Made by a program: the position numbers and the translations under genes
Shown: piece after piece, positions 3,537 to 9,552 of the stretch
Layout: every line of letters starts with the position of its first letter
Numbering within the stretch: the stretch's first letter is position 1
DNA from: Ochromonadaceae sp. CCMP2298
Lineage: Eukaryota > Sar > Synurophyceae > Ochromonadales > Ochromonadaceae
Assembly: GCA_026770595.1 (NCBI GenBank)
Contig: MU633857.1
Span: 1-21,183 of the forward strand
DNA: 21,183 bases
Direction: 5' to 3'
Notes under the pieces: generated by a model
Seen by the model: only the letters and a program-made list of their open reading frames with translations
The model's database searches: none
What the model was told of the DNA's origin: nothing

Positions 3537-6500
3537 CTACATCGATCGCACAGCTTCTAAAAGCGGAGTGCGCCCAAAGTTATCAAGCGCGTTTGCGTCC
3601 GCCCCCGAAGCTAGCAGCAAACTGACCATTTTGCTGTTCCCCAGGGCTGAGGCTAGATGCAGACCACTGCGACGGTCATAGTCAGATGCCCCGACGGGCA
3701 GCCCGTACCGCAGCAGCTGCTCCATATAGCTTGTGTTGCCAGAAGCCGCCACTGCGCACATAAGCGACCCTGCGTCTCGTTGGTAGCTGCACTCTGCACC
3801 CACCCCCGAAGTTCCCGAATTTCCGTGCGAATTTTCCCGCACGCCGAGGTTAGCGCCGGCAGCGAAGAGCATCTCAGCGGCCTCATTTTTGCTGTTTTTG
3901 ACGGCCTGGGGGAGAATGAGGAGAATCAGGAGAGAGACAAGAGAGACGAGAGAGACGAAAAACCTCACCTCGAAGAGCGGTGTGATACCGAAATTGTCGG
4001 TGCAGTTGGCGTTGGCTCCCTGCTGCAGCAGGAAGGAAATGGAGGACAGGGAGCCGGCTGCTGCGGCAATGTGTAGAGGTGTGCGGCAGTCATAGTCGGC
4101 CTTTTTTGGGGGTGTCAGGCGTGGAGGTTGGGGAGTGTGTGGGGGGGGTGATCAGAAGGTTATTATAGTTTTTGTTCAGTACTGCCCAGCACTCAACACT
4201 CAACGTCCAGCACTCAGCAACCACCAGTGGATACAATAACAACAACTCACGTGATTCACGCTGAAGCCACCGCTAAGCGCTTGCCTCAGGGCAACTAAAT
4301 TGCCGGTTGAGGCGGCGAGGCACAGCTCGGCGGTCTGGGTGGTGAGGGTTAGGGTTAGGGTTAGGGTTAGGGTTAGGGTTAGGGTTAGGGTTAGGGTTAG
4401 GGTTAGGGTTAGGGTTAGGGTTAGGGTTAGGTTTAGGGTGACGTTCGTTACGTAAGAGTGTGTGTCGAGAGGATGGGTTGTACCATCTACCTTATCGTGC
4501 TGCTTCTGCAGCATCACCCCCGCAATCAGCGTCTCGTAGTGCGCGTACACCGCCTGCATACGCGGGTCCACCGTGGAGGTACGCAGGCGCTCCAAATCCC
4601 TTGCCACCGCCTCCTGCACCAGCATCGTGTCGCCTTTGGGTGTCAGGAGGTGGGGTTGGGGAGTGTGTGTGGAGGGGGCGTCAGGGGGGTTATTATGGTT
4701 TTTATTCAGTACTGCACAGCACTCAGCAACCAGTGGATACAATACTACAATAATAAAAACTCACGTGGATAGGTGTCCTTTATCAAATCCCACTCCTTCC
4801 GTTGCAGCCCCAGCAGCCTGCATATGCTGCTGGTGCGCACTGTGAAGGGCTGCAGAAGATTGAACATAAACGAGGCCTCCCCGAAGCAGTCGCCTTTGCC
4901 CACCGACCCCACCACCCTGTACTGCGACGCCACTGCCCTCTCCTCCTCGATGCTCGGACCGGTGCTGCCCGCGCGCGTGCTGTGGTAGCTGCTCGTTATG
5001 TCCTCTTCCTCTTCCATCGCCAGAAAGCGCGAGCCCCTCCTCGAACTGCCCCGGCGCTGCGGCACCCGCCCCCCCCTCTCCTCTTGTCCCTGTTCCCCCT
5101 GACCCAGTGACTGCTGGCTCTGCTGGCCTAGCCAACCCCCTTCCACAAACCCCTGCCCCAGCTCCCCCCGATTCGCCTCCTCCCACGCCTCATCGTGTAT
5201 AAGCAAATCCGCCGTGCCGCTCACGACGAAAAACATCTCAAACGCTGCGTCCGACTGGCTGACCGCGTCTGTCTCCGTCATAAACATCTCCACACTCAGA
5301 CAGCAAGCCAGCGTGTCGATAAACGCATTGGAGGCGATATCTGATCAGTAAGGTGAGTAGGGGGCAGAGGGATAGTAGGTTAGATGGTTAGAGGGATAGA
5401 GATACAGAGGGGCAGAGGATCTAGCCTCCCTATCGGGTACTTCTGACTGTCCCAACTCACCCCCCACGAAGGACAGCTCCACAGTGGGTCTGTACAGCAG
5501 CCTCTGGATGCGGGCCCTGAAGACTGCCGGAAACACCAACAACGTCTCACGATGCTCCTTGGCTACGTTGAACTGTAACACCATATGTGCGCGCATGGAT
5601 GTGCGGATGTCCTCGGGGAGGGAGTTGGCGGTCAGGAATCTCTCCAGGTGCTGGAAGGACTGTCGGAACATGCGAGTGCTCTCGTCCTTGTTGGTCACCA
5701 GCGTCGTTATGTTTCCGATTACGAAGGCGGCGAGAAATGTCTGGATGTGGGTGTGGGGGAGGGTTGTTAGGAAAGGAGGAAAAGAGGAGAGAGGGGAGGG
5801 AGAGAGGAGGAAGAGGGAGGTGTAGGGAAGAGGGAAGAGGGAAGAGGCAGGAAAGAAGCGGGTGAGTTGGGACAGTCAGAAGTACCCGATAGGGAGGCTA
5901 GGTCCTCTGCCCCTCTGTATCTCTATCCCTCTAACCATCTAACCTACTATCCATCTGCCCCCTACTCACGTTACTGATCAGAAGGACGATGATGACCACA
6001 TATTCGGACGGATTCTGCGGCGCTATATCCCCATACCCCACCGTGCTGACCGTTACCACCGCCCAGTATAGACTTGTCAGGTAGAGTTTCCCAGGGGACT
6101 TCGGCAAACCATCCGGTTTTGTAGCTTCCACCAGAGCGAGCCAGGTGGACCCGAAGACCGTCTGCTGCTTGGCCACGAAGTAGAAAATACAACCGAACCA
6201 GTGGGCCTGCAGCAGAGACAGGAGCATGAACATGCACAGGCGCACGGTGACCCAGGGGTAGGAGACGTTGACGTAGGCCTTGGTGGGGGTTAGGGTTCGG
6301 GAGTTGGGGTAGGGGTTAGCGTCAATCGCCAGAGCAGAGCAGACAAGAGGAGAGGGAGGGAAGTACCTGTGCAAAGAAGTCGATAACGCGCACCATACGC
6401 CCCAGACGCAGCAGGCCTAGGCAGAAAATCAGCCTGGCGTCCGCTTGCGGGTCTGTGGATGCGATGAGGTCGAAGGGCAGGGCCGAGATGACCTCCACCA

Positions 6501-9121: not shown

Positions 9122-9552
9122 GCTGAACTTTAGCTGCACTAAGTTATATTGTTTGCGACTGTACATTTCAGCTGTAGGTAACTTACGTTAAATAATGTCT
9201 ATAAACACACTCCTATCCGATTTGGATTTCAACGTAACCGACAGTTAGATAGGAAGGCGAGGAATTCTGATATAGCACAATCTGACTCTAGCCAGGAAGA
9301 TGTGCAATTTAGCGTTACTTTACTAAAGTGTAGTAAATGTAATTTCCCTCTTCGAAAGGGAAATTACATCATTCTAGATGTTATGGGGATGTATTTGGCA
9401 GTTTGGCGCGTTTGGCGGTTTTCAACGGATGGGGTTTTGGAGAAGGTGGAGGTTTTTGTGCCGCTGCCTTCGCTCGGTGGACGACGCAAACCTCGACAGA
9501 ACAGATCTCTCCTAAGATCTCGCAGAACCTCCTCCATTATCATATCCCGACG
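9122..9552. other. intergenic, aminotransferase 3' / Rieske 5' region
   Basis: 431 bp, AT-rich, with no gene seen. It contains TAACTTAC at 9179-9186 and a strong perfect hairpin at 9337-9369. The distal part probably includes the Rieske promoter and 5' UTR. Confidence 0.5.
9337..9369. repeat. perfect 13-bp hairpin upstream of Rieske gene
   Basis: atgtaatttccct (9337-9349) and agggaaattacat (9357-9369) are exact reverse complements with a 7-base loop, cttcgaa. It ends 183 bases upstream of the Rieske ATG. It may be a promoter palindrome or a transcript stem-loop; nothing shows which. Confidence 0.7.

Follow-up and report, generated by a model that had tools for sequence, protein, structure and literature searches.

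A predicted potassium channel intron that may derive from an inverted copy of the neighboring exon-intron boundary

Overview

Predicted intron 3 of a K+ channel gene, located on the minus strand of a 21,183-nucleotide stretch of DNA from Ochromonadaceae sp. CCMP2298 (hereafter, the window), was probably created by a local templated inverted insertion that copied the end of exon 2 together with the start of intron 2. A preliminary description had put forward local inverted copying of an existing exon-intron boundary as the origin of a new intron, and the proposal is supported by the coincidence of the intron with the copy, the old-looking bases at the end of exon 2, and the lack of both a third copy and a target-site duplication. 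The scope is one locus, at which splicing, gain and mechanism are inferred from the sequence. The origin of new introns is a long-standing question, and here the source, the insert and both junctions are still readable.

The channel gene and its predicted introns

The spliced model of the channel gene matches the Pfam domains Ion_trans (1.2e-17) and Ion_trans_2 (2.4e-9) and ankyrin repeats, with cNMP_binding under its cut-off. The nearest proteins are P0001 (46% over 56% of the query) and P0002 (49% over 45%). The exons and introns of the model that are of concern here are as follows:

6366-6279, 5969-5741, 5460-5341, 4764-4634, 4490-4335, 4250-4101 and 3968-3906, minus strand: predicted introns 1-7 of the gene model
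5970..6278, minus strand: exon 2 (pore and S6; ends LLISN), from protein alignment and Pfam
5741..5969, minus strand: predicted intron 2, 229 nt, with GT-AG ends, CTAAC 30 nt before its end and a gap-free protein
5461..5740, minus strand: exon 3, 280 nt, with repeat arms on both sides, from protein alignment
5341..5460, minus strand: predicted intron 3, 120 nt, GTGAGT...CTGATCAG, with GT-AG ends and a gap-free protein once removed
4765..5340, minus strand: exon 4, starting ATATCGCC, from protein alignment

Predicted intron 3 has the features of a spliceosomal intron, including GT-AG ends, a branch-like site and a reading frame that is restored on removal. Its length of 120 nt would by itself preserve the frame, and an in-frame TGA lies inside. 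When intron 3 is retained the protein stops after residue 510, when intron 2 is retained it stops after residue 391, and when exon 3 is skipped the frame shifts to a stop after 14 further codons. No close transcript of the channel gene was found among the similarity-search matches listed. Candidate paralogs for use as an outgroup were limited to two weak matches on contig 338 of the assembly (E 0.001 and 0.009), and none of 53 pattern matches to relatives in viral contigs was confirmed.

Two other features of the gene are noted. The open reading frame ends at an in-frame TAG (window 3537-3539, minus strand) within the ankyrin region, and thus the channel gene may be decaying, which counts against the proposed origin of intron 3; the protein on both sides of the TAG matches P0002 in order, the stretch between appears gap-free by eye, and the TAG may be a premature stop, a site of read-through or a sequence error. 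Predicted intron 5 contains the telomere-type unit GGTTAG (coding strand: CCCTAA), repeated about 16.5 times at window 4341-4439, and these repeats supply CTAAC sites.

The inverted repeat

Introns 2 and 3 are related by an inverted repeat that flanks exon 3 and includes the following parts:

5341..5462, minus strand: arm 1, the putative derived copy, 119/122 bases complementary to 5860-5981
5860..5981, minus strand: arm 2, the putative source, composed of the 12 coding bases that end exon 2 (5981-5970) and the 110 bases with which predicted intron 2 begins (5969-5860), with polarity taken from the protein alignment
5353..5460, minus strand: 108-bp core of arm 1, GTGAGTWGGG...CCCWACTCAC, which reads so on both strands
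5862..5969, minus strand: 108-bp core of arm 2, a match to the terminal pattern on both strands

The plus-strand arm 5341-5462 and its partner 5860-5981 are reverse complements at 119 of 122 bases, with mismatches at 5352/5970, 5369/5953 and 5420/5902; the preliminary estimate of about three mismatches is thus an exact count. A repeat search of the window makes each arm one base longer (5340-5462/5860-5982; 123 nt, 98%, 397 nt between), and the three other inverted pairs of the window are 31-52 nt long, 71-77% alike and 7.5-16 kb apart. The composition of the second arm is as first described, namely the start of intron 2 (5969-5860) plus the 12 last coding bases of exon 2 (5981-5970). The first arm had been equated exactly with intron 3, and here a small correction is due: intron 3 lies wholly within the arm, but the arm is 2 bases longer at the donor end and the alignment 1 base longer at the acceptor end. 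The three differences in 122 bases suggest that the inverted copy is young, while gene conversion could also keep the arms alike. Elsewhere in the window, a near-palindrome of 33 bases is present at 9337-9369 (94% over 34 columns).

Copy number and the possibility of a mobile element

The assembly searched spans 11,247,203 bases (11.2 Mb) in 724 contigs, with the window as contig 111. A DNA search of this assembly detected the second arm with an E value of 6.7e-54, and both of the two scored candidates were the two arms. No third copy of the arm was scored in this 11.2 Mb search, which skips very common words, such that the absence is not absolute. The core carries a terminal inverted repeat of 10 bases with one mismatch (GTGAGTWGGG), and its terminal pattern was found only at 5353-5460 and 5862-5969, each on both strands, compared to 0 matches for a reversed-pattern control. 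Further genomic copies of the 108-bp core, a prospect raised in the preliminary description, were therefore limited to the two arms by DNA search and terminal pattern alike.

These counts bear on whether the core is a mobile introner, which would be a DNA element bounded by terminal inverted repeats and inserted twice, in opposite orientations. Introners typically appear as many similar introns across genes, with target-site duplications and terminal inverted repeats in part of the families. The present core does read GTGAGTWGGG...CCCWACTCAC on both strands, introners with terminal inverted repeats and pairs in opposite orientation are known (PMC9860276), and the same gene has a second pair of copied introns (introns 4 and 6). 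This origin is nonetheless improbable, as no third copy was found in the assembly by DNA search or terminal pattern, the repeat extends 12 bases into conserved coding sequence, and no duplication is adjacent to intron 3, with only scattered 3-base matches within the 15-nt flanks. An introner family is thus disfavored by copy number (two places in one gene), terminal pattern and the lack of an adjacent duplication. The terminal inverted repeat itself is expected if a working donor was needed.

The second copied pair consists of predicted introns 4 (4634-4764) and 6 (4101-4250) on the minus strand. These introns are copies in direct orientation, with 112 identical and 7 different aligned bases and 43 gap columns; they differ in phase (1 and 0, respectively), and the only bases common to their flanks are CAC before and GC after. 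The pair is 82% alike over 4638-4728, and no third copy of this sequence was scored in the assembly search. Taken with the intron 2/3 pair, the gene would have seen two intron-to-intron copy events, one inverted and one direct, neither of which is seen elsewhere.

Further inverted-copy introns were sought by BLAST of 43,054 non-N bases of the assembly (189,992 taken, of which 146,938 were N), a sample that is too small for a rate and includes about 13 kb with GC near 0.42. The search gave three local inverted pairs, none of this kind: two are low-complexity and one is a 39-base palindrome. The low GC (~0.42) is that of positions 20001-33092 of contig 1 (G000; L007 and L008), compared to 0.49-0.69 per kb in the window, and thus more than one organism may be represented in the assembly.

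Borders of the homology and polarity of the copy

The borders of intron 3 and those of the copied segment coincide within 2-3 bases. This coincidence weighs on a different reading, in which intron 3 is old and its interior was overwritten with inverted intron 2 sequence by gene conversion or template switching. Template switching between the arms of an inverted repeat is known to homogenize them (PMC8604942), which lends the idea some substance; however, the homology spans both splice sites and stops 2-3 bases from the intron borders, and any exchange would need to have stopped at each of them. Overwriting of an old intron is, therefore, unlikely.

The window protein was aligned to 12 relatives picked from 72 protein matches, and the result points to the direction of the copy. 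The exon 2/3 join (LLISN|TFLAAF) is crossed without a gap in all 12 relatives, and the last residue of exon 2, an Asn encoded by the copied AAC codon, is shared by seven of them (P0001-P0004 and P0006-P0008) and is invariant in the window and its three nearest relatives (P0001-P0003). The exon 3/4 join is likewise without a gap in 11/12 rows, which are all that reach it, as P0003 ends earlier. At the protein level, P0001 is one protein across the positions of introns 1-3. The gap-free joins and the common Asn suggest that the copied exon bases are old coding sequence and that the site of intron 3 was once continuous coding sequence; thus, the copy appears to have run from exon 2/intron 2 to exon 3/4. 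Exon 2 retains an intact Asn codon, and the mismatch at 5352 is accordingly assigned to the derived copy.

The reverse polarity would make intron 3 the older sequence and the exon 2/intron 2 boundary the one that was overwritten by an inverted copy. In favor of this order, the repeat covers nearly the full length of intron 3, which could suggest that the intron was the unit copied. Such an event would, however, have had to write four codons of S6 with no change in length and with the Asn common to 7/12 relatives, and this polarity, disfavored by the protein alignment, is very unlikely.

An inverted chimera of the whole-genome-amplification kind, introduced during amplification or assembly, is the least probable of the explanations weighed and is regarded as highly unlikely. 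Inverted chimeras do arise in amplified DNA, and the assembly is fragmented (724 contigs) and perhaps mixed (some sequence with GC of 0.42). A chimera would by contrast not be expected to show two breakpoints that are each correctly flanked on either side, arms that differ by three substitutions, GT-AG ends and a reading frame that is restored. Two further routes are disfavored: copying or reverse splicing of a spliced intron RNA yields a sense, exon-free copy, such that an inverted copy which under the favored polarity carries 12 exon bases is unlikely to have this source, and tandem genomic duplication yields a direct exonic AGGT repeat, where the repeat here is inverted and non-adjacent.

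Proposed mechanism of insertion

The layout fits a templated inverted insertion of the foldback or template-switch type. In the sequence of events proposed, a break or stalled fork would have occurred in the once continuous exon 3/4, after which the 3' end of the coding strand (...GTGGGGG) would have folded back about 400 nt to prime on GG inside intron 2. Extension templated by the same strand would then have proceeded for 120 nt, past the intron 2 donor and into the final 12 bases of exon 2, before the newly made end was rejoined to ATATC with at most 1 base of homology. The insert would presumably have been spliced because splice signals are nearly strand-symmetric.

With the template some 400 nt upstream on the same strand, the geometry is that of a foldback, and a template switch during replication would leave the same trace. 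Microhomology amounts to 2 bp (GG) at the donor junction and 1 bp at the acceptor junction, little above chance. Against a foldback, three 7-bp matches to the same exon end, with ends at 5759, 6289 and 6585, were available close by and went unused.

Splice signals and strand symmetry

Each splice signal of intron 3 can be traced to the reversed strand of its putative source. The GTGAGT donor is the internal ACTCAC of intron 2 reversed, which bears out the earlier assignment of the donor to the inverted end of the copied segment. A CTCAC starting 17 nt from the 3' end of intron 3 is the intron 2 donor GTGAG reversed, and the final CTGATCAG is the reversed end of exon 2, with the AG acceptor 12 nt beyond CTCAC. 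The acceptor had been ascribed to the palindrome TGATCA; the reversed exon end does provide the AG, but the palindrome is 8 bp (CTGATCAG) and is not essential, as any CT at this place becomes AG when inverted.

The branch consensus is CTNAY, and a match to it lies within the last 50 nt of 7/7 predicted introns of the channel gene; thus, the CTCAC of intron 3 is a plausible branch site. The mismatch at 5352 (GTTAC to CTTAC) adds one more CTNAY match. Five of the seven donors of the gene are GTGAG, and each when reversed gives CTCAC with the first AG ending 7-16 nt on, while the other two (introns 1 and 5) give no CTNAY when reversed. A flipped donor can thus bring a ready 3' splice site, since reversed GTGAG reads as the branch-site-like CTCAC. 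In the window as a whole, 24 of the 43 CTCAC sites have a first AG ending 4-25 nt on; the arrangement is therefore common, needs no design, and makes signal symmetry alone weak evidence.

Predicted hairpin around exon 3

The two arms would pair in the transcript as one long stem:

5336..5986, minus strand: pre-mRNA stretch with one long predicted stem enclosing exon 3, from folding compared to shuffles

The predicted fold of 5986-5336 has an energy of -342.5 kcal/mol, compared to a mean of -194.9 (sd 7.8) for 20 shuffles (z -19), and the three arm differences are non-pairing in RNA (C/C, C/U and A/C). The modeled stem would bury the intron 2 donor as well as the donor, branch region and acceptor of intron 3, and splicing of intron 2 before transcription of intron 3 would avoid the hairpin. 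In C. elegans, introns that flank an exon and carry reverse complementary matches favor both back-splicing and exon skipping (PMC8330042).

Implications for intron gain

If the proposed origin is true, intron birth would be tied to common errors of DNA copying, with no mobile element involved, and such introns would from the outset have a sequence to pair with on the far side of an exon, a possible aid to exon skipping or circular RNA formation. The suggested rule, that a 5' splice site can act as a 3' splice site once inverted, is testable in any annotated genome. A tentative generalization is that splice signals are strand-symmetric enough for a short inverted copy of a donor region to arrive as a finished intron; ordinary foldback and template-switch errors might then give rise to new introns continually, with each new intron pairing with its parent and looping out the intervening exon.

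Among the matches listed from the open-access literature, no paper was seen to describe new introns as arising by inverted copying of a boundary between exon and intron. A review of seven intron-gain mechanisms includes tandem duplication and break repair, does not use the word 'inverted', and counts few intron-gain events of known origin (PMC3443670). A gained intron of Drosophila aligns to the reverse complement of mitochondrial DNA (PMC3296678); thus, inverted donors as such are not new.

Comparison with known systems

The closest parallels are insertions formed by MMBIR and foldback synthesis. MMBIR templated insertions are inverted, near the template and flanked by microhomology (PMC8421209), and yeast foldback inversions range from 2 to ~150 bp, although mostly <14 bp, with a median of 2 bp at the end-joined side (PMC11724301). 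The present case shares the inverted copy near its template and a length within the foldback range of up to ~150 bp, and its junction microhomology of 2 bp and 1 bp is little above chance. By contrast, the published insertions are from cancer genomes and yeast break repair, are mostly shorter with longer priming homology and smaller gaps, and are described in passages from which introns are absent. Priming in the yeast foldbacks was on imperfect repeats of 10 bp that enclose a loop of 41 nt (PMC11724301), and MMBSearch looks within 100 bp (PMC8421209), whereas priming here would have used 2 bp across a gap of ~400 nt. Stem-loop synthesis by Pol theta can begin from two terminal bases (PMC11292364). 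Short-range template-switch mutations similarly copy a nearby stretch from the other strand to form a perfect stem (PMC8794818, PMC7954356), but these are described for RNA stems and mutation clusters; 'intron' is absent from PMC8794818 and is mentioned twice in PMC7954356, in neither case on intron creation.

Among known routes of intron gain, introners (PMC9860276) likewise are new introns of copied sequence with splice sites at the ends. The intron described here differs in having two copies only, in one gene, with no adjacent duplication and a source that includes coding sequence. The introner survey accepted pairs in opposite orientation, and thus similar pairs may sit unremarked in its data. 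Tandem genomic duplication (PMC3443670, PMC4974935) also provides both splice sites by local duplication of DNA with no mobile element; the copy in that case is direct and uses AGGT, whereas the present copy is inverted and relies on donor and branch-like signals in reversed form. Finally, the sister stwintrons and introns of the Hypoxylaceae (PMC8469720) have ends symmetric to their own reverse complement, are seamless without flanking duplication, and are proposed to arise by break repair. Those introns have terminal repeats of 45-55 nt and dozens of dispersed copies, whereas the intron described here has a terminal repeat of 10 bases with one mismatch and is a local copy.
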